From a virus: a DNA stretch of 29,553 nt. A program made the translations under genes and the position numbers. The stretch covers positions 1 through 29,553 of IMG/VR virus record IMGVR_UViG_3300044729_001107. One strand, 5' to 3'. This document shows, piece by piece, positions 1 through 29,553 of this stretch (the first letter of the stretch is position 1; the number at the start of each line of letters is the position of its first letter). The notes beneath the pieces were generated by a model. The model saw nothing but the letters and a program-made list of their open reading frames with translations. It had not been told where the DNA came from and searched no databases.

Positions 1-137
1 GTGGGATAAGCGACATCCATAGATATTCAATGTTGGGGAATGGATGGACAATAGATGTAATAGCACATATATTCAAAAACATAACCCAAAAATGAAAGAA
101 AAAATTGATGAATATTTTACGAAAAACTATAAAAGAC
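1..137. repeat. Left copy of terminal overlap (circular contig)
   Basis: These 137 bases match 29417-29553 at every position except base 11, which is C here and T at 29427. The mismatch changes AGC to AGT, both serine, in the overlapping methyltransferase gene. The join restores two intact genes, so this is best read as the overlap of a circular (or circularly permuted) genome rather than a true biological terminal repeat. The unique length would be about 29,416 bp. Confidence 0.9.
3..95 (+). CDS. C-terminal end of cytosine-C5 DNA methyltransferase (partial copy)
   Basis: This is the last 30 codons plus stop of the methyltransferase that is complete at 28657-29511. It is present twice only because the circular contig overlaps itself. 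The reading frame starts mid-codon at base 3 and ends with TGA at 93-95. It carries the end of the target-recognition/motif IX-X region, including the glycine-asparagine-glycine turn of motif X (LGNGWTIDVIAHIF). It is not a separate gene or a pseudogene. The stop overlaps the ATG of the next gene (ATGA). Confidence 0.9.
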   Translation, partial: GISDIHRYSMLGNGWTIDVIAHIFKNITQK

Positions 138-2624: not shown

Positions 2625-3479
2625 ATGTCTTTAATAGTACAAAATAGTAGAACACTACTTAAACGTAGTCAAATAAGTGGAGCAACCCCAACAGTTAAAA
2701 CGGGTAGCACTCAACATACAGATGGAACTTGGGTTGATACAGATATTTACCCTGGTGAAATCTATTGGAATATGCAAGATAGAATTATGTATATTGGTTG
2801 GGAAGACATAAGTGGAAATACAGGTACTGATGTATTGGTGACAGGAGCTGGTACAGGTAGTTGTGTAACAGATTTTTATGTTGAGAATGTTTTTCCTTGT
2901 AATAATTTATTAAATTTACAAGCTACTGATGGTACTAATTATGATAATAATATTAATATAACTGATAGTAGTTTCTTTGGAGTTACTCTTACATCAACAG
3001 ATTTTACTACTACATCTGAGATTAACATAACTCCTAATGATGTTACAATAAATGGTGGTGGTAACCTACAAATAGAAGTTAATGTTCCTTCTATTGGAAC
3101 TGGAACAATTAATTTTGCTAGAACAAATAATAGATTGCAATATGATTTAAGTTTAGGTAATACAACTGGAGCTACCCCAACAACAATAGCTATAATAGAT
3201 TTTAGTGGGGTATTTGATTCAGTGATTACTATAAATGCAAATATTACTGCTGTAGGTAGTGGTGTTAATTTAGGATATGGTGCAAGACTATTTGCTGCAT
3301 TCAAAAATATTGGAGGTGTAATTACACAACTTTCAACAACTGATAAGAGTGAGAAAACAGATTTTACAACAGCAACATCAGACATAGTTATATCGGGTAC
3401 AGATATAATTATACAAGTTACAGGTGAAGCGGCAACAAACATAAGTTGGAGAAGTAATTTTTCTTATCATATCGTATAA
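2625..3479 (+). CDS. Putative tail fibre / receptor-binding protein, anchor type A
   Basis: A 284-residue, beta-rich (Thr/Asn/Ile/Gly) protein. Its N-terminal ~75 residues share the anchor of the protein at 1151: a basic start with a Leu-Lys-Arg-Ser patch, then PGEIYWNMQDRIMYIGWED. A short cysteine-containing segment (GSCVTDFYVENVFPCNN) follows, then alternating hydrophobic/polar strands (about 120-170) and a C-terminal beta domain ending in WRSNFSYHIV that I cannot match to other array members. The gene follows the helical hypothetical gene with a one-base gap. I infer it is one of several interchangeable appendage proteins attached to the same virion site as the 1151 product. Confidence 0.6.
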   Translation: MSLIVQNSRTLLKRSQISGATPTVKTGSTQHTDGTWVDTDIYPGEIYWNMQDRIMYIGWEDISGNTGTDVLVTGAGTGSCVTDFYVENVFPCNNLLNLQATDGTNYDNNINITDSSFFGVTLTSTDFTTTSEINITPNDVTINGGGNLQIEVNVPSIGTGTINFARTNNRLQYDLSLGNTTGATPTTIAIIDFSGVFDSVITINANITAVGSGVNLGYGARLFAAFKNIGGVITQLSTTDKSEKTDFTTATSDIVISGTDIIIQVTGEAATNISWRSNFSYHIV

Positions 3480-3533
3480 CAATCCTAACCAATAATTAAC
3501 AATCAATAAAAATCTTATCTATAATAAAAACAG

Positions 3534-4403
3534 ATGCCTTTACAATATAACCCTACAGATAGTCGTTTTTTGACTGTGGCTCAATCCAGAACAAACAATG
3601 GACAGAAAGATATTAGAATAATTTTAGACTTACCCACAAACGATTTTTATTCGTTAGATGATGATGGTAACTTTAACATCATAGGAGGTGGTGGAGGAAC
3701 ACAAACTTTAGCTGATGTATTAGATATTGGAAATGTAACTGGCCCTAACCCTATCATATTCGATGAATTCTTTGGATTAATTTTTGATAATAATTCACGA
3801 CTACAAGAGGGAACTATTGATGCTGGACTTGGTGGTAATAAGGGGATTGCTCAAATATGTGGACTTGGATATGAATTAAAGTGGGAAGGTGGTGTTTTAT
3901 ACGTTATGGGTAGTTCGGGTAACACTATTAGACAATCTTTATTTAACTTTTCAAATGCACCTACAATAGATGATGATGATACAAAAGGTTATCAAGTTGG
4001 AAGTCGTTGGACTTGGGATAATGGTAGAATTTATGTGTGTAGTGATAATACGACAGGTGCCGCTGTATGGACTCAACAGACAATATCAATTGACTACACT
4101 GAATATGTTGCATTTGTTAGTCAAAGTGGTGCTACAGCTCCAACAGCAGTAGTAGATAAAAATGATACAGGTTTTGTTTTCACTTATGGTTATTCATCAT
4201 TAGGTTCATATACAATTACAGCAACTGGTGCATTTCCTGATAAAAATAAAGTAATACCTTATTTCAACTCACAAACTAATCAAGGATTTACAACAATAGG
4301 ATGGACTGATGCTGATAATCTTTATGTAGTAACAACTGATACCTCAGCAGTTTTAACTAACGGACAATTTGAAGGAAATTTAGTAATAAGAATATACAAT
4401 TAA
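3534..4403 (+). CDS. Putative receptor-binding protein, anchor type B (copy 1)
   Basis: A 289-residue protein. Residues 1-50 are the type B anchor (YNPTDSRFLTVAQSRTNNG, then RIILDLPTNDFYSLDDDGNF) found in five consecutive genes. The middle is a beta domain including GYQVGSRWTWDNGRIYVCSD, a pattern I associate with phage fibre proteins. The C-terminal ~100 residues (YVAFVSQSGATAPTAVVDKN, then TGFVFTYGYSSLGSYTITATG) form a beta-sandwich module that, as I recall, is common at the C-terminus of Bacteroidota phage appendage proteins. The anchor is almost identical in protein sequence to that of the next gene, while the DNA differs at many synonymous sites. Host adhesion is inferred. Confidence 0.65.
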   Translation: MPLQYNPTDSRFLTVAQSRTNNGQKDIRIILDLPTNDFYSLDDDGNFNIIGGGGGTQTLADVLDIGNVTGPNPIIFDEFFGLIFDNNSRLQEGTIDAGLGGNKGIAQICGLGYELKWEGGVLYVMGSSGNTIRQSLFNFSNAPTIDDDDTKGYQVGSRWTWDNGRIYVCSDNTTGAAVWTQQTISIDYTEYVAFVSQSGATAPTAVVDKNDTGFVFTYGYSSLGSYTITATGAFPDKNKVIPYFNSQTNQGFTTIGWTDADNLYVVTTDTSAVLTNGQFEGNLVIRIYN

Positions 4404-4415
4404 AATTAAAATAAG

Positions 4416-5267
4416 ATGCCAGTACAATACAATCCAACTGATAGTCGTTTTTTGACTGTCGCACAATCAAGAACAAATAACGGACAAAAAGATATTAGAA
4501 TTATCTTAGATATTCCAACAAATGATTTTTATTCATTAGACGATGATGGGAACTTTAACATCATTGGTGGTGCAGGAACAATAACATTAGAACAAGTCTT
4601 AACACAAGGTAATTCAACGGGTGGTGTAGCAATTATTTCACCTGATGGACTAACTGAATTGACTGCAGTTGATACACAAGCTGGACTATATTGTACCGAT
4701 GCTATTGCTTTAGTAAATTCTATCTATGTTCAAACAGCAAAAATTGAGCATGTCGCTCAGGATACTACTAGTGATGAAGACACATTAATTTCACAAGACT
4801 CTAAAAATATACTTTTACAAAATACTTCTGGTAGTGGAAATCAAATAAATCAAGTTACTATTTCACAAACTAAAGTTGGTATTGAAAATAACTTAAGCGG
4901 CTCACAAATACAACAAATTTATGTTGATGGGGATAGTTGTAATATGAAATATGAAGATAGTATAAATATAATCGATGTTGAATTAGGACTTACTAATGGT
5001 TTTAGAGCAGTTCAAACAGTTCAAAGTGGTGATTATGAAAACTTCGTACAGGTTCAATTTGATAAAGTTCAATTAGTATATAATGATATTGCTGGGGGTA
5101 TTAACCACGAATTAAAGGTTGATGCTGATGGATATTTTTTGAAAAACCTACCAGCATATGCTGATGATACAGCAGCATCAGGATTGACAGTAGGATATTT
5201 ATATCAAACAGATGGAACTGGTGCATCTCCATTAGATGTAGCAGGTATATTAATGATTAAACAATAA
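4416..5267 (+). CDS. Putative receptor-binding protein, anchor type B (copy 2)
   Basis: A 283-residue protein with the type B anchor (residues 1-50), differing from the preceding gene's anchor at only about two or three residues (MPVQ for MPLQ, DIP for DLP). The remainder diverges completely. Residues about 60-240 are a long stretch of short Asn/Gln/Ile-rich segments (TEKs are absent; instead HVAQDTTSDEDTLISQDSKN and similar) resembling an elongated beta structure. The C-terminal segment GYFLKNLPAYADDTAASGLT, then GYLYQTDGT, is a short motif I recall from the ends of phage and prophage fibre proteins. It starts 12 bases after copy 1. It looks like a duplication of the anchor followed by exchange of the distal domain. 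Confidence 0.65.
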   Translation: MPVQYNPTDSRFLTVAQSRTNNGQKDIRIILDIPTNDFYSLDDDGNFNIIGGAGTITLEQVLTQGNSTGGVAIISPDGLTELTAVDTQAGLYCTDAIALVNSIYVQTAKIEHVAQDTTSDEDTLISQDSKNILLQNTSGSGNQINQVTISQTKVGIENNLSGSQIQQIYVDGDSCNMKYEDSINIIDVELGLTNGFRAVQTVQSGDYENFVQVQFDKVQLVYNDIAGGINHELKVDADGYFLKNLPAYADDTAASGLTVGYLYQTDGTGASPLDVAGILMIKQ

Positions 5268-5272
5268 CAACA

Positions 5273-6139
5273 ATGCCAACATATAACCCATTAACAGATA
5301 GGTTTTTAACTGTAGCAACAGTCAAAACCAAGAACGGACAAAAAGATGTAAGAGTTGTATTAGATATTGATACAAATATCTTTTACACATTGGATGATGA
5401 TGGGAATTTTATACCTATTGCTTATTCACAAACCAATCCTGATGTATTTGTATCGGGTGGTACTTATAATAATAATACATTTACCTATACAAATACGACT
5501 GGTGGCACATTCAGTGTTAATTTTGATACATTAACAGGTTTAACTGTAACAGGTATTATCTCAGCCACTACAATAAGTGGAGGAACATTATATGGTGATG
5601 GTAGTAATTTAACAGGTATAGACACAACTCAAACAGCATTCTATCAAGAATCAGTATGGACATCATTTCAATCTCCATCAAGGAATGTGGGTACAACAAA
5701 CTTTGGTTCAGGTGGTGCTTTAGCAGTTCCATTTATGGTTAATAGAGAAGTAACGATTTTAAATAGTAGATTAGAATGTACGGGTATATCAACAAACCCA
5801 ACCAATTGTGAATTTGCAATATATGATGTAATAAGTGGGGTTGTAACAAATAGATTATTTCGTCAAGTATTCCAAGTGACAGCAACAGGATTATACACAT
5901 TCCCAACAAATATAACACTTCAACCAGGTATTTATGCTTGGGCAACAACACAAGATATAATTTTAGGATGGAGAAGTTTTACATTACCTGAAAACGCTTT
6001 AGGTGTTGCACCAACAATGGGTACGAATGTATTTATATCAGGGAAATCAAAAGCATCCAATACACTTCCAAATCCATATGGTACTCAAGCAGATAATTTT
6101 GGTAATTTACCATTAGCAATATTTGAAATAACAATATAA
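5273..6139 (+). CDS. Putative receptor-binding protein, anchor type B (copy 3)
   Basis: A 288-residue protein. It opens with a more diverged type B anchor (YNPLTDRFLTVATVKTKNGQ, then VVLDIDTNIFYTLDDDGNF). The segment VFVSGGTYNNNTFTYTNTTG (about 60-80) closely parallels VFVTGGTYSAGTATFTNNTG in the type A protein at 1151. A GTLYGDGSNLTGI turn follows, which is typical of beta-helical fibre shafts. The C-terminal domain (about 125-288, with CEFAIYDVISGVVTNRLFRQ) resembles the C-terminal domain of the 1151 protein. This gene therefore joins the type B anchor to a tip otherwise carried on the type A anchor. It starts five bases after copy 2. Confidence 0.65.
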   Translation: MPTYNPLTDRFLTVATVKTKNGQKDVRVVLDIDTNIFYTLDDDGNFIPIAYSQTNPDVFVSGGTYNNNTFTYTNTTGGTFSVNFDTLTGLTVTGIISATTISGGTLYGDGSNLTGIDTTQTAFYQESVWTSFQSPSRNVGTTNFGSGGALAVPFMVNREVTILNSRLECTGISTNPTNCEFAIYDVISGVVTNRLFRQVFQVTATGLYTFPTNITLQPGIYAWATTQDIILGWRSFTLPENALGVAPTMGTNVFISGKSKASNTLPNPYGTQADNFGNLPLAIFEITI

Positions 6140-6143
6140 AAAT

Positions 6144-6737
6144 ATGACATACAACCCAAATTTAGACAGATATTTAACTGTAGCCCAAGTGATGACAAAT
6201 AAGGGTACAAAGAATATTAGACTTATCCTCGACTTAGATGCAAACACATTCTATACCTTGGATGATGACAATAATTTTTTAGCATTAGAATATCAACCAC
6301 CAACCTTATCATTTTATATTGAAGGTAATACCTCAGCAACAACAATAAGTTCAGCAAATACTTTTTTCAATTTTAGTTCAAATGTTGCCCCTACATTACA
6401 ATATCAATCTCAGTTAAACAATGGAATACATCTTAACACAAGTACTGGTAAAATCGAATATAGTGGGGATACAAGGTATTTTATGATTACAGGACATATA
6501 GAAGTATCAGCAGGTAATAACAATGAAATAGATATTGCAGCATTCAAAAATAATACAATTATACCTGGTTCAACAACTAAAGTAATAACAACAAGTGGAG
6601 GAAAAACCTCATCATTACCTGGTATGGCAATTGTTGAATTATCAAATGGAGATATTGTAGATATTAGAGTAAAAAATAAATCAGCTACAACAAATATAAC
6701 TGTATCATCATTAAATGTTTTAATCAAAGGGATTTAA
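6144..6737 (+). CDS. Putative receptor-binding protein, anchor type B (copy 4)
   Basis: A 197-residue protein, the most compact complete member. Residues 1-50 are the type B anchor (YNPNLDRYLTVAQVMTNKG, then LILDLDANTFYTLDDDNNF). The remaining ~140 residues form a single beta jelly-roll-like domain. The pattern of a TTISSANTFFNF start, a KIEYSGDTRYFMITGHIEVS core and a GDIVDIRVKN strand near the end is the one I know from C1q/TNF-like tip domains of phage fibres, which are usually trimeric. It starts four bases after copy 3 and is followed by a factor-independent terminator, so it is probably the last gene of its transcript. Confidence 0.65.
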   Translation: MTYNPNLDRYLTVAQVMTNKGTKNIRLILDLDANTFYTLDDDNNFLALEYQPPTLSFYIEGNTSATTISSANTFFNFSSNVAPTLQYQSQLNNGIHLNTSTGKIEYSGDTRYFMITGHIEVSAGNNNEIDIAAFKNNTIIPGSTTKVITTSGGKTSSLPGMAIVELSNGDIVDIRVKNKSATTNITVSSLNVLIKGI

Positions 6738-6764
6738 AAAGAGGAGGTATTTTTAGTCTAACTT

Positions 6765-6796
6765 GGAGGTGTTTTTATAACATCTCCATTTTTTTT
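6765..6796 (+). terminator. Rho-independent terminator after adhesin copy 4
   Basis: A 7-bp stem, GGAGGTG (6765-6771) with CATCTCC (6781-6787), has one G-U pair and a 9-base loop. A run of eight T (6789-6796) follows after one A. It lies 28 bases after the stop of the gene ending at 6737 and before the ATG at 6816. An A/T-rich TATATTTA sequence just after it could be a promoter element for the next unit. Confidence 0.75.
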
Positions 6797-6815
6797 ATAT
6801 TTATAAGAAAAAATT

Positions 6816-7259
6816 ATGATGTATAATCCAAATAACCCAAGGTTTTTAACAGTAGCAAACGCCATCACCAAGAATGGACAAAGAAATGTTAGAATTATAT
6901 TAGATGTAGAATCAAACAAATTCTATACCCTGGATGATGATAACAATTTCCTTGAAATAGGGTATAATGAAAATATCCTCACCATAGAAGAAATACAACA
7001 ATATGTAGAGAATTACTTCAATGAAAATAATTGTTGTCCTGAACCCATAGTAGAACCAGTAAAAATGGGTAGGGTAATACATAACGCACAAACACAATTA
7101 ATAAATTATACATATGATGATAGACAAGTATGGTTGGTATTAAAGAATGGGGGTAATATACACGAGATAGTATCCTTCAACCCAAAACCCAATCATAACA
7201 TAACCATAAACGATTTAAGGTATTTTACACACCCCTGTGATAATTTCCCTTGTAATTAA
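6816..7259 (+). CDS. Short type B anchor protein (copy 5)
   Basis: A 147-residue protein with the type B anchor (YNPNNPRFLTVANAITKNGQ, then IILDVESNKFYTLDDDNNF) at residues 2-50. A helical, acidic segment follows (ILTIEEIQQYVENYFNENN), then a cysteine pair and a small C-terminal domain (QVWLVLKNGGNIHEIVSFNP) ending in a second pair of cysteines (HPCDNFPCN). It lacks the long beta-rich distal part of its paralogues. It is separated from them by the terminator at 6765 and heads the terminase/tail unit instead. It may be a constitutive adaptor that uses the same docking site, or a cap on it; both ideas are inference. Confidence 0.6.
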   Translation: MMYNPNNPRFLTVANAITKNGQRNVRIILDVESNKFYTLDDDNNFLEIGYNENILTIEEIQQYVENYFNENNCCPEPIVEPVKMGRVIHNAQTQLINYTYDDRQVWLVLKNGGNIHEIVSFNPKPNHNITINDLRYFTHPCDNFPCN

Positions 7260-18136: not shown

Positions 18137-19786
18137 ATGGAAAAGACTATACCTACATATTATATAACGATTGATGAAATGGAAGATGGTGGTATTGATT
18201 TAATATCACTAGTTGAGAACCCTGCTATTATGATTAAGGGTTTAGCTTTCAACAAGGAAGAAAAACGTTTTGAGTTCAAATATGACAACGATAAACAAAT
18301 TATAGCTGGCCCAGCTATTATCCCCGATTTACCTATATACAGATATGATGATGAGTTGGGAGAATATTATGTTGTATTTACAAAAGAAACAATAGAAAAA
18401 ATGGTTGATAGATTCAACCAAAAACCCAAACAATTACCAATTAATTTAGAACATTCAAGTGAGATTGTACCCGCATTTATAAAGGGTAGTTGGATTATTG
18501 AGGATAGTATAAATGACAAATCACAAATGTATGGATTTACTGATTTACCTGTGGGTACTTTTTTTATTGAAGTCAAAATTACAGATAAAGAATACTGGAA
18601 AAAAATCAAAGAAAGTGATAAAACAGGATTCAGTATTGAGGGAATGATGGGGTTGAGTTTAGCCCAAATCAAAAAAGAATTTGAAATACTACAAGGTGGT
18701 GTTGCATCATCTAATGTTGATAGTTATAGATATAACGATGTTAGTGGTGAATTGATATTAACATTCAACGATGGTAGTCGTTATAGATATTATCAAATAG
18801 ATAAAGATGATTTTGAAAGTATTGTATTGGGTGATGCCGAATGTATTACTGAGGGTGAGAATGAATATGGTAGATGGTACATTGGTAAGTCCCCATCAGT
18901 AGGAGCTGCTGTATGGCAATATCTTATTGATAAGGGTGTTAGGTATCAAAAGCTAACACAAGATGTTATGACATTTGAATCGTATAATGACTACCCCAAG
19001 GCAGCAAGAGATAATGCTTGTAAGGTATTAAGATGGAGGGATGAATACGGAGAAAATGAGGTTGATGGAATGACAAGAGTGGGTTGGATAAGAGCAAATC
19101 AGTTGTGTAATGGTGAAAAGATAAGCGAAGAGACAATTGCGCGTATGAGTGCATTCCAAAGACATAGAGAGAATAGTGAAATAAGTGATGAATTTAGAGG
19201 TACACCTTGGAAAGATAGAGGATATGTAGCTTGGTTAGGATGGGGTGGTACTGAGGGTATTGAATGGGCATCCAACAAGTTAGAAGAAATTAGAAATGAA
19301 CAACTAAATAAAACAAATAAAAAAGATTTTAATATGAAAAACAAAAAATTAATTTTTAGAGACTACAAACTTAAAGATGGTGATATGATTACTATTGATG
19401 GTGATATGGCAATCGGTTCATCTGTATTTATTGTTAAAGAAGATGGTACAAGAGAATCTGCACCCGAAGGTGAGTATATGATTGAGGATGGTACTACATT
19501 ATTTGTTGATGCTGAGGGTTATATCAACGAAGTAAGAACTGCAGCTACAAGTGAAACAGAAGAAAATATGGAGGTAGCTCAATACCAAGTAACCCCAGAA
19601 GAAGTAATGGCTGTTGTTAATCCTATCTTTGAGGAGATGAGAAGAATCATCGGTGAACTACAAGCAAGAGTTGATATGTTGGAGGGTAATATGCCTAAAC
19701 CAATGGATGAAGAAGAAATGGAAGAGTTTTCAAGGGTTGATAATTTAAAATTTAGATTGTCAAGAATTAGAGCAACTCAAGTCTAA
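18137..19786 (+). CDS. Prohead protease fused to KTSC domain and scaffold
   Basis: A 549-residue head maturation protein with at least four parts. Residues 1-185 resemble XkdF-type prohead serine proteases, with likely catalytic H106 (INLEHSSEIVPAF) and S166 (TGFSIEGMMGL). Residues about 190-255 (SSNVDSYRYNDVSGELILTF, then YRYYQI) match a KTSC domain. Residues about 275-390 form a conserved-looking Trp-rich domain (FESYNDYPKAARDNACKVLR, then RGYVAWLGWGGTEGIEWA). Residues 400-549 are acidic and end in a coiled coil (FEEMRRIIGELQARVDMLE), as expected of a scaffold. An in-frame ATG at 19334 after an A/T-rich leader might start a nested scaffold protein, as in lambda C/Nu3. The gene directly precedes the capsid gene. 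Confidence 0.75.
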   Translation: MEKTIPTYYITIDEMEDGGIDLISLVENPAIMIKGLAFNKEEKRFEFKYDNDKQIIAGPAIIPDLPIYRYDDELGEYYVVFTKETIEKMVDRFNQKPKQLPINLEHSSEIVPAFIKGSWIIEDSINDKSQMYGFTDLPVGTFFIEVKITDKEYWKKIKESDKTGFSIEGMMGLSLAQIKKEFEILQGGVASSNVDSYRYNDVSGELILTFNDGSRYRYYQIDKDDFESIVLGDAECITEGENEYGRWYIGKSPSVGAAVWQYLIDKGVRYQKLTQDVMTFESYNDYPKAARDNACKVLRWRDEYGENEVDGMTRVGWIRANQLCNGEKISEETIARMSAFQRHRENSEISDEFRGTPWKDRGYVAWLGWGGTEGIEWASNKLEEIRNEQLNKTNKKDFNMKNKKLIFRDYKLKDGDMITIDGDMAIGSSVFIVKEDGTRESAPEGEYMIEDGTTLFVDAEGYINEVRTAATSETEENMEVAQYQVTPEEVMAVVNPIFEEMRRIIGELQARVDMLEGNMPKPMDEEEMEEFSRVDNLKFRLSRIRATQV

Positions 19787-21563: not shown

Positions 21564-22025
21564 TTAAAACTTTTTTACAATAAATTTTTTTCTATATTCG
21601 GGTAATAATCTTGGAATTAAATATCCATATGATTTACTACCATCATTATCAATAGCACACCCACTCCTAAAATAATCCTCAGCTAATAATTCTTTCAATT
21701 CGTTGGTTTTGATGAACCAACCCTGCTTTAAATGTACGAAGTAATAACAATACCAATTTGAATTAGAGGTTCTAATACCTGAATCCTTTCCACGACTTTG
21801 ATATTCAATATAAATATTACCAGTGTCATTTGTTGGAGTAATTTGGTAATCACTTTTGATTTCATATGTGAGTATCTCATTGTTTGGGGTTTTTATTTTA
21901 AAATCAAATTTATTATTGTTATTCATTTCGATGATTTCACATCCATTATCCTTTAAATAGTCTAAGACTATTATTTCAACATCTTGCCCGATTGCTAAAT
22001 CGTTCTTAAATTTACCTGCTCCCAT
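21564..22025 (-). CDS. PD-(D/E)XK-type nuclease candidate
   Basis: A 153-residue protein and the only convincing minus-strand gene here. It shows the order expected of a small PD-(D/E)XK nuclease: a helix with a glutamate (GQDVEIIVLDYL, E17), D41 in NNKFDFKIK, and E55-x-K57 in LTYEIKSDYQ. A segment GNIYIEYQSRGKDSGIRTSN and aromatic-rich strands (WYCYYFVHL) follow, like resolvase- or restriction-type folds of phages. It has its own terminator and, as a lone antisense gene within late genes, resembles a moron. Possible roles are host or competitor DNA cleavage, branch resolution during replication, or a partner of the phage methyltransferases; none is shown by the sequence. Confidence 0.6.
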   Translation of the reverse strand: MGAGKFKNDLAIGQDVEIIVLDYLKDNGCEIIEMNNNNKFDFKIKTPNNEILTYEIKSDYQITPTNDTGNIYIEYQSRGKDSGIRTSNSNWYCYYFVHLKQGWFIKTNELKELLAEDYFRSGCAIDNDGSKSYGYLIPRLLPEYRKKFIVKKF

Positions 22026-25213: not shown

Positions 25214-25255
25214 CCCTACACTCCCTGAGCAATCAAAGTGTGGGGTTTCGTTTTT
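25214..25255 (+). terminator. Rho-independent terminator after the lysis genes
   Basis: CCCTACACT (25214-25222) pairs with AGTGTGGGG (25237-25245) through nine pairs including one G-U, around a 14-base loop. TTTCGTTTTT follows (25246-25255), an interrupted T tract. It lies 30 bases beyond the stop at 25184 and closes the portal-to-lysis unit. Confidence 0.7.
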
Positions 25256-25258
25256 ATA

Positions 25259-25300
25259 TAGTTAATGTTTTGTTAAAATATATTAATAACTATACTTTTT
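25259..25300 (+). promoter_or_regulatory. Candidate promoter of the replication/methyltransferase unit
   Basis: TTTTG (25268-25272) and TACTTTTT (25293-25300) are 20 bases apart, fitting the Bacteroidota pattern TTTG-N19/20-TAnnTTTG with a final T in place of G. The -33 part overlaps a direct repeat, GTTAATG-N4-GTTAAAA (25261-25278, 11-bp period), that resembles the repeat at 22092-22109. The first gene follows at 25345. The whole gap 25185-25344 holds only this element, the terminator and A/T-rich DNA. Confidence 0.4.
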
Positions 25301-25344
25301 ATTATCCTATTATATATTTATTAATAAATAAACAAATAAAAATT

Positions 25345-25720: not shown

Positions 25721-26341
25721 ATGAAAAATTCTAAAAAGTTAATAATGAACACAGGTTTTTTACCAATAAATTATAAAATAATCCAAGAGCTTGGAGTTGA
25801 AGTAGGTATGTTGTTATGTCTATTAATAGATAAACAAGAATTATTCAATAAAGTTTTTTATTATACCGCACAATCAGCTGAAAAAGAAATCAAAATGAAC
25901 AAAAAGGTTTTTATGAAATCTAAAAAGATTTTAGTTGAAATGGGTTTAGTTAAAAGCTGGAATGGTGAGGGTAATAAATCATACTTCAATTTTGATGAGG
26001 ATACCTATAAAAAATTAGAAGAATTATTAGGACTACAGAAGTCCCAAATAGATACTACAGAAGTCCCAAATGAATACCACAGAAGTCCTAAAATGGTACT
26101 ACAGAAGTCCCAAATACATACTACAGAAGTGCCAAAATGGGACTTAAATAATAACAAAGAACAAGAACAAATAATAAAAACAAAAAATAATAATAAAGAA
26201 GAAGAACAAATTAATAATAATATAGAAAATTTGGTTGAAGAAGATGAATTAGATTCATATTTGAGTGGGAATAAAACATTCAAAATGGAACCAATTATAC
26301 AAAAACCTAAAAATAGTGTTTTTAGCAATATTGAAATATAA
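25721..26341 (+). CDS. Replication initiator-like protein (winged helix)
   Basis: A 206-residue protein. Residues about 10-95 resemble a winged-helix domain of phage replication initiators: IIQELGVEVGMLLCLLIDKQ, then TAQSAEKEIKMNKKVFMKSK as the recognition unit, and KILVEMGLVKSWNGEGNKSY as helix and wing. Residues about 105-140 are encoded by DNA iterons (LQKSQIDTTEVP, later LQKSQIHTTEVP). Residues 140-175 are a low-complexity Asn/Lys/Glu/Gln linker encoded by an A/T-rich tract, and a short C-terminal peptide (PIIQKPKNSVFSNIEI) could recruit host helicase machinery. The organisation parallels lambda O, where the origin lies inside the initiator gene. With no phage polymerase or helicase visible, it presumably recruits the host replisome. 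Confidence 0.6.
   Translation: MKNSKKLIMNTGFLPINYKIIQELGVEVGMLLCLLIDKQELFNKVFYYTAQSAEKEIKMNKKVFMKSKKILVEMGLVKSWNGEGNKSYFNFDEDTYKKLEELLGLQKSQIDTTEVPNEYHRSPKMVLQKSQIHTTEVPKWDLNNNKEQEQIIKTKNNNKEEEQINNNIENLVEEDELDSYLSGNKTFKMEPIIQKPKNSVFSNIEI
26032..26145 (+). repeat. Five 22-bp-spaced iterons inside the initiator gene
   Basis: Five copies of an 18-base element (consensus ACTACAGAAGTCCCAAAT) start at 26032, 26054, 26076, 26098 and 26120. The spacing is exactly 22 bp, about two helical turns. Copies 1, 2 and 4 are identical, copy 3 has two or three changes and copy 5 two. An inverted partial copy, GGGACTT, is at 26139-26145. Because 22 is not a multiple of three, successive copies are read in different frames, so selection must act on the DNA. 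They are probable binding sites for the initiator encoded here. Confidence 0.85.
26146..26230. other. A/T-rich tract next to iterons (candidate unwinding region)
   Basis: About 85 bases of almost pure A and T with strongly biased purines (runs such as AATAATAAAAACAAAAAATA) directly follow the iterons inside the initiator gene. They encode only a low-complexity Asn/Lys/Glu/Gln linker. An easily melted tract beside iterons is the classic layout of a theta origin such as that of lambda. The call as origin is inferred. Confidence 0.6.
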
Positions 26342-26383: not shown

Positions 26384-26722
26384 ATGACAACAAAAATATT
26401 AATTAACAATCAAGTATATTCAACTGAAACTCATTATTGTCCTCCATACTCACACGGACAGAATGGATATAAACCCTTATCATTAAGAATTAATGTGTTA
26501 ACTGAAACTATCTATTGTAATTCAAGGGAATTTAAGAATTATGATGAACTCTATAACTTCTTAAAAGAAAAAGATAAGAGTGGAAGATGGTTGAAAAATT
26601 ATCATAATTTTTTAGGAGATGAGGATGGAACTTATTTAGATAATATGTTCTTCAACCTCCGCAGGAGATATAAAATATTTTTATCAAAATATGACTTTTC
26701 CCAAAATTCAATATATTTATAA
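26384..26722 (+). CDS. Hypothetical early protein
   Basis: A 112-residue protein with a possible small alpha/beta domain. The N-terminal strand ILINNQVYSTETHYCPPYSH is followed by polar loops, and the C-terminal half is helical and basic (FFNLRRRYKIFLSKYDF). Tyr and aromatic residues are abundant. It follows the initiator gene by 42 bases; that gap holds a short CCC/GGG mini-hairpin too small to call. I do not recognise a family. The position suggests a replication or host-takeover accessory gene. Confidence 0.5.
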   Translation: MTTKILINNQVYSTETHYCPPYSHGQNGYKPLSLRINVLTETIYCNSREFKNYDELYNFLKEKDKSGRWLKNYHNFLGDEDGTYLDNMFFNLRRRYKIFLSKYDFSQNSIYL

Positions 26723-26734
26723 TAAAATTAGAAT

Positions 26735-27169
26735 ATGAACAACAAATGGAAAAAGATTAAAAACAAACTTGATGGGGATGAGTTCCTTTTAGAATCATTA
26801 ACCAAAAAAAATATTACATATAAAAGTCATTTTATCCTACTTCAATTCGAAGAATTATTAAGCGAATTAGATACCTTTTATTTTAACGATGTTTACCTCC
26901 ACAATAAGTCAAATAAGGACATTGTGGAGGATTTTATTCGTGAGGTGTGGATTCAATACATTTATCTAAATTATTTTATTCAAAAGGAAATGTACGAAGA
27001 ATGTAGGTTGATTAGTAACACCATTGAAATGATAAAAGATTTTACTTGTAGAAACTTCAACTATGATGATAAACAAGTTGTAGTACAAATGTTAAATGAT
27101 TATTGTGATGAGGTTATAACCGACATAAATGAAAAATATGAGATAAATTTTTTAAAAGTAGATAAATGA
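26735..27169 (+). CDS. Hypothetical helical early protein
   Basis: A 144-residue protein that appears entirely helical and acidic, with hydrophobic repeats such as FILLQFEELLSELDTFYFND and IREVWIQYIYLNYFIQKEMY and a C-terminal LNDYCDEVITDINEKYE. It has no transmembrane-like run. It lies 12 bases after the previous gene, and its stop overlaps the ATG of the ribbon-helix-helix gene (ATGA at 27166), so the two are probably made together. A pairing of a helical protein with a small DNA-binding protein can indicate a regulatory or toxin-antitoxin-like unit, but there is no specific support. Function is unknown. Confidence 0.5.
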   Translation: MNNKWKKIKNKLDGDEFLLESLTKKNITYKSHFILLQFEELLSELDTFYFNDVYLHNKSNKDIVEDFIREVWIQYIYLNYFIQKEMYEECRLISNTIEMIKDFTCRNFNYDDKQVVVQMLNDYCDEVITDINEKYEINFLKVDK

Positions 27170-27417
27170 AGAAAATCGTAAAATCGCAACATATATTAAT
27201 GAAAATTGAAAAAAAATTAAAAAAACAATTCCAAGATGCGTGTGAAGAAAATTCAATGACAATGTCCTACATATTACACAATTTTATAAAATCTTATGTT
27301 GAGGAGAATGAAAGAATTAAGAAGGAAAAAATAGAATTATTATACAAAGAAAGTAATGTAATGTATAAAATTCGCACACTACAAGATAAACTTGATAACT
27401 ACAATTACAATCAATAA
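27166..27417 (+). CDS. Ribbon-helix-helix (CopG/Arc-like) protein
   Basis: An 83-residue protein. An N-terminal strand (QHILMKIEKKLKKQFQDAC) leads into helix one. After an ENSMTMS turn a second helix (SYILHNFIKSYVEEN) follows, which is the ribbon-helix-helix arrangement of Arc/CopG repressors. The C-terminal 35 residues form a charged helix (KEKIELLYKESN, then YKIRTLQDKLDN) suited to dimer or tetramer assembly. Dimers of such proteins bind short DNA repeats through the strand. Coupled to the preceding gene by ATGA and followed after four bases by the methyltransferase gene, it could regulate the early unit, for instance through the GTTAA repeats; that link is a guess. Confidence 0.6.
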   Translation: MKKIVKSQHILMKIEKKLKKQFQDACEENSMTMSYILHNFIKSYVEENERIKKEKIELLYKESNVMYKIRTLQDKLDNYNYNQ

Positions 27418-27421
27418 AATT

Positions 27422-28660
27422 ATGGAAAAAAAATTATTAAAAGGTAACAATTTAGAATTATTAAAAACACTTGAATTCAACTCGGTTGATAGTGTTGTAA
27501 CTGATGCCCCATATGGCTTATCATTTATGAATAAGAAGTGGGATTATGATGTACCATCAGTTGAGTTTTGGACTGAGGTATATAGGGTATTAAAACCAGG
27601 GGGACATATCTTATGTTTTGGAGGAACAAGAACTTATCACAGAATGGTTGTGAATATCGAAGATGCTGGTTTCGAGATAAGAGATTGTATCCAATGGATA
27701 TATGGTTCAGGTTTTCCTAAATCGTTGAATGTGGGGAAAGAAATAGATAAATTACAAGGTAATGAAAGAGAAGAAAAAGAAATAATTTTTCCAGATGGTT
27801 CTAAGCCAAGAAAAACAGCTGGACATTTTGTAGTTGGTGAAAATATACAAAGAAATACCAAATACACAAAAGGACAAACACAATACGAAGGTTGGGGAAC
27901 AGGACTTAAACCAGCAAATGAACCAATTGTATTAGCAAGAAAACCTATTTGGGAAAATACAATCGCAAAGAATGTATTAGAATTTGGAACTGGTGGTATT
28001 AATATTGATGGATGTAGAATTGGTTATGTAGAAAATGATAAAACAAAAAATATTGTTAATTATAACTACAATTTAAAAGACAAACAAAGTGGGGTTATGT
28101 ATGATAGTTATGATGGTGAAACAAAACCATCAACAGGACATAAAGAAAAAATAATGGTTTTTAATGATGAAGGTAGGTTTCCCACCAATGTAATACTTGA
28201 ATGCACTTGTGATGATGATATTCACACCAATCCAGAATGTCCTTGTTATATTATGGATGAGCAGAGTGGTGGAACATCACGCTTCTTCTATCAAGCCAAG
28301 GTTAGCAAAAAGGAGCGTAATATGGGGTTGGATGGATTTGAGGAAAAAGAACGATTTAGATTATATGAAACTGATACTATAAAAAATTGGAGTGAAGATA
28401 GTATTAAATATCAAAAACGCAATCCACAAAAAAACAACCACCCCACAGTTAAACCAATCAATCTATTAACATATTTGGTTAGAATGGTAACACCCCCAAA
28501 TGGTGTTGTTTTGGACGCATATATGGGTTCAGGTTCAACAGGTATTGCAGCATTATTGGAGGGTTTTAAATTTATAGGAATGGAAATGGATGATGATTAC
28601 TTCAACATTGCTGAGGCAAGAATAAATAACTACGAAGAATATAGAAAATTATTAAAATGA
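27422..28660 (+). CDS. DNA adenine-N6 / cytosine-N4 methyltransferase
   Basis: A 412-residue protein from ATG 27422, which has the A/T-rich leader; an in-frame ATG at 27392 overlaps the upstream gene. Motif IV is D28-A-P-Y31 (VVTDAPYGLSFMNKKWDYD), a DPPY variant. The AdoMet-binding motif I is near the C-terminus (LDAYMGSGSTGIAALLEG, from D365). This IV-before-I order is that of beta-class amino methyltransferases. A Cys-rich loop (ECTCDDD, then NPECPCY; C261, C263, C273, C275) in the centre may bind zinc. TVKPINLLTYLVRM is typical of phage enzymes. It would modify phage DNA, probably against host restriction. Whether it methylates A or C cannot be told. Its stop overlaps the next ATG. Confidence 0.85.
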   Translation: MEKKLLKGNNLELLKTLEFNSVDSVVTDAPYGLSFMNKKWDYDVPSVEFWTEVYRVLKPGGHILCFGGTRTYHRMVVNIEDAGFEIRDCIQWIYGSGFPKSLNVGKEIDKLQGNEREEKEIIFPDGSKPRKTAGHFVVGENIQRNTKYTKGQTQYEGWGTGLKPANEPIVLARKPIWENTIAKNVLEFGTGGINIDGCRIGYVENDKTKNIVNYNYNLKDKQSGVMYDSYDGETKPSTGHKEKIMVFNDEGRFPTNVILECTCDDDIHTNPECPCYIMDEQSGGTSRFFYQAKVSKKERNMGLDGFEEKERFRLYETDTIKNWSEDSIKYQKRNPQKNNHPTVKPINLLTYLVRMVTPPNGVVLDAYMGSGSTGIAALLEGFKFIGMEMDDDYFNIAEARINNYEEYRKLLK

Positions 28661-29511
28661 ATGTACTGAGTTTATTTGATGGGATGAGCGGAGGACAATT
28701 AGCCTTAAATAGAGCATATATTGAATATGATAACTATTATGCTGCTGAGATAGATGTAAATTCAATCAAAGTAACACAACACAACTACCCCAATACAATT
28801 CAATTAGGTGATGTAAAGAATGTTAAAGGATGTGATTTACCATCAATTGAATTGTTAATTGCGGGGAGTCCTTGTCAATCTTTTTCAACACTTGGAGATG
28901 GAACAGGGTTTGATGGAAAAAGTGGTTTATTTTGGGAATTTATAAGAATTTTACACGAAGTTAAACCCAAATATTTTTTGTTGGAGAATGTTGTGATGAA
29001 AAAAGAATGGAGGGATATAATATCAAAGGAGTTGGGTGTTGAACCTATAAAGATAAATAGCAATTTGGTATCAGCTCAAAACAGAAAAAGGTTATATTGG
29101 ACTAACATTCCCAACATTATTCAACCTGAAAACAAGAATATATTTATTGAGGATGTATTAGATAAAGAATTTGATGATAAATATTGGTTGAGGAAGAACA
29201 ATACCGACTTATTACTCAAAAAAGTAAGTATAGATAATGCTCCAAAGATTTCCTGTATTGACGTATATAACAAAAAAGTAAAGTTAGATAGGAAATGTCC
29301 AACATTAACTCTACCCCATCATAACTCAATTAGGTTATTACAGCGTGGTAGAATAAGAAAACTAACCCCAAATGAATGTGAAAGGTTACAGAATGTGCCT
29401 GTAAATTATACAAATTGTGGGATAAGTGACATCCATAGATATTCAATGTTGGGGAATGGATGGACAATAGATGTAATAGCACATATATTCAAAAACATAA
29501 CCCAAAAATGA
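28657..29511 (+). CDS. DNA cytosine-C5 methyltransferase
   Basis: A 284-residue enzyme with the full motif set. Motif I is NVLSLFDGMSGGQLAL, motif IV is GSPCQSFS with catalytic C73, motif VI is LLENVV (E110-N-V), motif VIII is QNRKRLYWTN (141-150), motif IX includes LTPNECERLQNVP and motif X is LGNGWTIDVIA. The target-recognition region between VIII and IX is short, as in phage enzymes related to the Dcm/DNMT3-like subgroup. It is coupled to the amino methyltransferase upstream (ATGA at 28657) and to the sigma-like gene downstream across the circle junction (ATGA at 29508). Two methylases of different chemistry suggest protection against more than one host restriction system. Confidence 0.9.
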   Translation: MNVLSLFDGMSGGQLALNRAYIEYDNYYAAEIDVNSIKVTQHNYPNTIQLGDVKNVKGCDLPSIELLIAGSPCQSFSTLGDGTGFDGKSGLFWEFIRILHEVKPKYFLLENVVMKKEWRDIISKELGVEPIKINSNLVSAQNRKRLYWTNIPNIIQPENKNIFIEDVLDKEFDDKYWLRKNNTDLLLKKVSIDNAPKISCIDVYNKKVKLDRKCPTLTLPHHNSIRLLQRGRIRKLTPNECERLQNVPVNYTNCGISDIHRYSMLGNGWTIDVIAHIFKNITQK

Positions 29512-29553
29512 AAGAAAAAATTGATGAATATTTTACGAAAAACTATAAAAGAC
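29417..29553. repeat. Right copy of terminal overlap (circular contig)
   Basis: This is the second copy of bases 1-137, identical from 29428 to the end and differing only at 29427 (T here, C at base 11). The exact stretch is 126 bases. The overlap supports a closed circle. The single synonymous difference could be a population variant or a sequencing error. Confidence 0.9.
29508..29553 (+). CDS. 5' start of the sigma-like regulator (partial copy)
   Basis: The first 15 codons of the gene complete at 92-625 (MKEKIDEYFTKNYKR) are repeated here and cut by the window end. The ATG overlaps the TGA of the C5 methyltransferase. This shows the two genes are adjacent and coupled in the circular genome, and supports 92 as the true start. 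Confidence 0.85.
   Translation, partial: MKEKIDEYFTKNYKR

Follow-up and report, generated by a model that had tools for sequence, protein, structure and literature searches.

That a phage may carry its replication origin inside the gene of its own initiator has long been known from phage lambda. There, four iterons spaced at 20-24 bp are annotated at about codons 117-144 of gene O, directly after the part encoding the N-terminal domain. Stx phages such as P27 and 933W carry six iterons in gene O followed by an A/T-rich tract, and the two extra copies simply lengthen the O protein by 13 residues (PMC7466680). Our searches of the open literature returned mainly this lambda/Stx comparison and gave no description of iterons in Flavobacterium phages.

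A comparable arrangement is found in a 29,553-nt stretch of viral DNA (IMG/VR record IMGVR_UViG_3300044729_001107, positions 1 to 29,553), analysed in full and called the window below. Its features are as follows.

25721..26341, + strand: putative initiator gene, 206 aa (open reading frame, distant relatives, predicted structure)
25760..26020, + strand: predicted winged-helix DNA-binding domain, residues 14-100 (predicted structure, PDB and BFVD matches)
26032..26048, + strand: iteron 1, ACTACAGAAGTCCCAAA
26054..26070, + strand: iteron 2, ACTACAGAAGTCCCAAA
26076..26092, + strand: iteron 3, ACCACAGAAGTCCTAAA
26098..26114, + strand: iteron 4, ACTACAGAAGTCCCAAA
26120..26136, + strand: iteron 5, ACTACAGAAGTGCCAAA
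26138..26145, - strand: weak 8-nt inverted partial copy, TGGGACTT on the + strand
26146..26230, + strand: A-rich low-stability tract with a 13-bp degenerate repeat, a putative DNA unwinding element (repeat and stability scans)

From sequence comparison, structure prediction and analogy, we consider it probable, at about 0.87, that the array and the tract together form the replication origin of this phage, arranged as in oriLambda and lying within the gene for the initiator itself.

The repeat array and the adjoining tract

The array (26032-26136) holds five 17-bp cores, starting at 26032, 26054, 26076, 26098 and 26120 and thus spaced by 22, 22, 22 and 22 bp, each with 0 to 2 mismatches to ACTACAGAAGTCCCAAA. 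The initial annotation had described five 18-base elements at exactly this spacing; the recurrence and the spacing hold, but 17 bp describes the core length better. When up to 3 mismatches are allowed, the 17-mer has five matches in the whole window, all within the array and none elsewhere in the genome, against 0.10 expected from dinucleotide shuffles. Across periods of 10-60 bp the array is the top tandem repeat of the window (score 50), and the next unrelated one, at 24.6, is the A-rich tract beside the iterons. Several direct repeats with a period within about 18-24 bp, lying inside an initiator gene, are characteristic of an oriLambda-type origin.

The reading frame changes from one copy to the next, all three frames being used: copies 1 and 4 encode LQKSQI, copies 2 and 5 TTEVP and copy 3 HRSPK, so that the peptide recurs only after 66 bases. 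When the protein was held constant and synonymous codons were redrawn from the phage's own usage (n=3000), the number of lag-22 matches in the array averaged 41.3 (sd 4.3, maximum 57), against the observed 68 of 88. Much of the repetition is therefore not forced by the protein, in agreement with the earlier proposal that the conserved unit is DNA, read in three frames with a 66-base protein period. Invariant columns make up 14 of 17 positions in the cores and 0 of 5 in the spacers (p=0.002), and each core contains an imperfect dyad, ACTaCaGaAGT. Conserved cores between diverged spacers speak against a fresh product of slippage. The repeat is a real feature at the DNA level and unique in this genome.

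Behind the array, positions 26140-26234 are 83% A+T (79/95), with a marked excess of A on the coding strand. The tract ranks among the least stable 0.3% of the genome's 60-80 bp windows, although an intergenic stretch at 25251-25330 is less stable still, so that the tract is not the least stable segment of the genome. An easily melted A/T-rich tract next to the iterons is again characteristic of an oriLambda-type origin; its presence agrees with what had been described, whereas the wording "nearly pure A/T" overstated its composition. Within the tract, a 13-bp degenerate tandem repeat of 4.9 copies (26147-26210) encodes an NNNKEQEQ-like sequence that is found again in relatives. An inverted partial copy had also been reported, and an 8-nt match does lie at 26138-26145. 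Inverted 8-mer matches of the TGGGACTT kind occur four times in the genome, however, and this one therefore carries little weight; spacer followed by the beginning of a degraded sixth copy would be an equally good reading of it.

The encoded protein and its relatives

The 206-aa protein is laid out as a winged helix, a linker encoded by the repeats, a segment rich in Asn, Lys, Gln and Glu, and a short C-terminal tail. AlphaFold2 predicts the winged helix (residues 14-100, in the order H-H-H-E-H-H-E-E-H) with a pLDDT mostly of about 90 or more, the linker as disordered and the C-terminal third at low confidence. No match to the protein was found among 50,697 phage records or among plasmid records, and comparison with PHROG and Pfam gave insignificant matches only, the best of the weak profile matches being transcription regulators. 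In viral contigs it occurs in two near-identical copies and, at 25% identity, in a distant relative, L003/L010. A family-alignment search with the winged-helix part alone (residues 5-94) adds L109, at 31% identity and an E-value of 2e-7 among candidates; the E-values for this kinship at 25-31% identity were computed on small candidate sets.

These relatives lead to named proteins. L010 matches a Flavobacterium phage "replication initiation protein" (45%, 2e-23) and a Lactobacillus "replication initiation O-like" protein (33%, 2e-11), as well as proteins of Fusobacterium phage phiBB and Eggerthella phage PMBT5, and it matches O-like families of PHROG. The window protein has no direct PHROG match to those families; its winged helix is tied to them through L010, L109 and the fold. 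The best fold matches in the viral library (BFVD) include O-like proteins from Lactobacillus phages c5 and Ld17 and from Eggerthella phage PMBT5. Matches in the PDB are generic winged helices, mainly of transcription factors and RNA polymerase III subunits. The N-domain of DnaD was considered as a specific PDB match and set aside, as its Z of 7.3 is tied with many others. The chain of sequence similarity through L010 and L109, joined to the fold matches, suggests that the window protein belongs distantly to the O-like winged-helix initiators. The initial annotation could not name the initiator, which can now be placed to this extent.

The relatives agree with the window in position: their repeats, with a period of 22-24 bp, lie between the winged helix and an A/T-rich stretch. 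Among 48 non-redundant related genes, with the window left out, self-similarity of the linker (nt 270-390) peaks at lag 23 (mean excess 0.113) and slightly at lag 24, while the lag-23 signal is absent before and behind the linker. Because most of these genes are close kin, the test was redone on nine relatives besides the window that are less than 60% identical in the winged helix. Their combined p is 5e-8, with no repeat signal in the N-terminal control. Individually, phiBB, PMBT5 and L027 are clear (p 0.001-0.002), L087 is marginal (0.037), and six of the nine miss p<0.03. Repeats between the winged helix and the Asn/Lys-rich segment are a feature of the O-like family that is clear in some members only. 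Just behind the repeats, the A+T content of the relatives climbs to 0.84.

What is kept is the place and the period of the repeat and not its sequence. The window consensus does not rise above background in the linkers of L010, Fpv5, LL-Ku, phiBB, PMBT5 and others, and the exact 17-mer is confined to the two near-identical contigs. Conservation of the repeat in relatives thus holds for position and 22-24 bp period but not for the 17-mer itself, which is what coevolution of initiator and site would produce.

A probable origin within the initiator gene and its alternatives

A probable origin inside the initiator gene had been proposed for this segment, and both the distant O-like kinship of the protein and the 22-24 bp repeats and A/T-rich stretch that its relatives keep at this place strengthen that proposal. 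By this reading, the winged helix would bind the five cores, possibly as a dimer as the core dyad suggests, and since 22 bp comes to about two helical turns, the bound proteins would line up along the same side of the double helix. The nucleoprotein complex so formed may strain and open the A-rich tract (26146-26230), after which the protein tail would recruit the host replicative helicase, with or without the help of a host loader, and the genome would be copied by host enzymes. Since the part of the protein encoded by the repeats is a predicted disordered linker, this stretch of DNA could evolve towards an origin at little cost to the protein.

The array might instead consist of operators through which the winged helix regulates transcription, for example its own by acting as a roadblock, with the origin lying elsewhere. 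The regulators among the weak profile matches and the transcription factors that dominate the PDB matches would suit such a role. Yet the sites are found some 310 nt into the gene rather than at a promoter and recur nowhere else in the genome, the relatives are annotated as replication initiators, some of them beside a DnaC-like loader or DnaB-like helicase gene, and the A/T-rich tract follows the repeats in relatives too, all of which makes operators improbable.

It is more improbable still that the array is a recent, functionless tandem duplication left by replication slippage in a tolerant region. The predicted disorder of the linker and the 13-bp degenerate repeat in the adjoining segment are what such an event might leave, whereas the invariant columns (14/17 in the cores against 0/5 in the diverged spacers) and the 22-24 bp repeats of other sequence at the same place in distant relatives argue against it. 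Scarcely credible is a repeat that serves the protein as a repeated peptide and not the DNA: LQKSQIxTTEVP does recur once, 22 residues apart, but a 22-bp unit is out of frame and read in three frames, the protein forces only 41.3 (sd 4.3) of the lag-22 matches against 68/88 observed, and the period of the relatives, mostly 23 bp, is out of frame as well.

Base-composition signals contribute little in either direction. The GC-skew minimum that might have been looked for at 26.0-26.2 kb is not there; the cumulative curve has no turning point at the array, and its detrended minimum lies at 14.4 kb. AT skew does reach its minimum close to the array, at 25.6 kb, but is confounded by one-strand coding, and with nearly all genes on one strand, skew is uninformative in this genome. 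The array contains no DnaA boxes, and the five TTATNCACA-type matches in the window are unremarkable for its composition.

Genome context and comparison with known systems

Apart from one mismatch, the first 137 bases of the window (1-137) are identical to the last 137 (29417-29553), and the junction is spanned by two other contigs, L007 and L008; the genome therefore closes into a circle of about 29,416 bp. Pfam searches with 30 predicted proteins, ten of them also compared with PHROGs, recognised a terminase, a portal, a protease, a holin and two DNA methylases. No polymerase, helicase, primase or loader was recognised among these 30, a scan that left several tail genes at 2625-6737 outside, and unrecognised proteins such as those at 26384-26722 and 26735-27169 could hold a loader. 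The similarity of the terminase, portal and capsid-region proteins to proteins of Parabacteroides and Nonlabens phages makes a host in Bacteroidota likely; no bacterial genome carrying the initiator or the portal was found.

Several other loci of this genome are worth recording. Five consecutive genes at 3534-7259 (starting at 3534, 4416, 5273, 6144 and 6816) share an N-terminal module of about 45 residues, YNPxxxRFLTVAxxxTxNGQKxIRIILDxxTNxFYxLDDDxNF, and then diverge; they may be read as a tandem set of tail or receptor-binding proteins that share one N-terminal anchor. One 549-aa protein (18137-19786) joins an XkdF-like phage protease to a KTSC domain. The only clear minus-strand gene (21564-22025) matches PHROG 13596, of unknown function, and sits in a local A+T-rich island with a drop in GC skew; it may have been inserted later. 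Two adjacent DNA methylases (27392-29511), one of the N6/N4 and one of the C5 type, lie a short way past the replication region, with no restriction enzyme recognised beside them.

Compared with oriLambda, the likeness lies in the iterons and the A/T-rich tract that follow each other in the middle of the initiator gene, behind the part for the DNA-binding domain, so that window and lambda share the order of DNA-binding domain, iterons, A/T-rich tract and tail. The parallel drawn at the outset is upheld in position too, with iterons at codons 104-139 of the 206-aa frame against about 117-144 in O. The window differs in having five repeats at a strict 22-bp spacing and of unrelated sequence, in a protein with a short C-terminus that, the general layout apart, shows no detectable similarity to lambda O in sequence, in lacking a recognised gene P-like loader, and in its apparent Bacteroidota host.

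A second comparison is with the O-like initiators of Lactobacillus delbrueckii phages LL-Ku, Ld17 and Ld25A, Fusobacterium phage phiBB and Eggerthella phage PMBT5 (PHROG 678/9773), which have a winged helix like that of the window; it is followed by a linker with 23-24 bp repeats, clear in phiBB and PMBT5, and then by an A/T- and Asn/Lys-rich stretch. These proteins are longer (240-281 aa), and in alignment the 206-aa protein ends before the C-terminal part of LL-Ku, phiBB and PMBT5, while 205-aa relatives have another C-terminal part. Most of these initiator genes are followed by a gene for a DnaC-like loader or a DnaB-like helicase. That the window encodes a minimal initiator, a winged helix and disordered tail without a recognisable C-terminal domain, which in a complete 29.4-kb genome without a recognised loader recruits the helicase of its Bacteroidota host by itself, seems to us rather doubtful.

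The closest named relatives of L010 are the "replication initiation protein" of Flavobacterium phage Fpv5 (PHROG 428) and the viral-contig relatives L027-L106, a group in which the winged helix is followed by a lag-23 repeat and which has an A/T-rich tract; in Fpv5 itself the repeat is weak or degenerate (p 0.06), and its iteron sequence is other than that of the window. Taken by itself the find is well supported but ordinary, a precise origin candidate for a small phage probably of Bacteroidota. Its wider interest lies in a lambda-like layout that recurs across phages of several phyla with a nearly fixed period of 22-24 bp and differing repeat sequences, and that would make the origins of many unannotated phages predictable from one gene.
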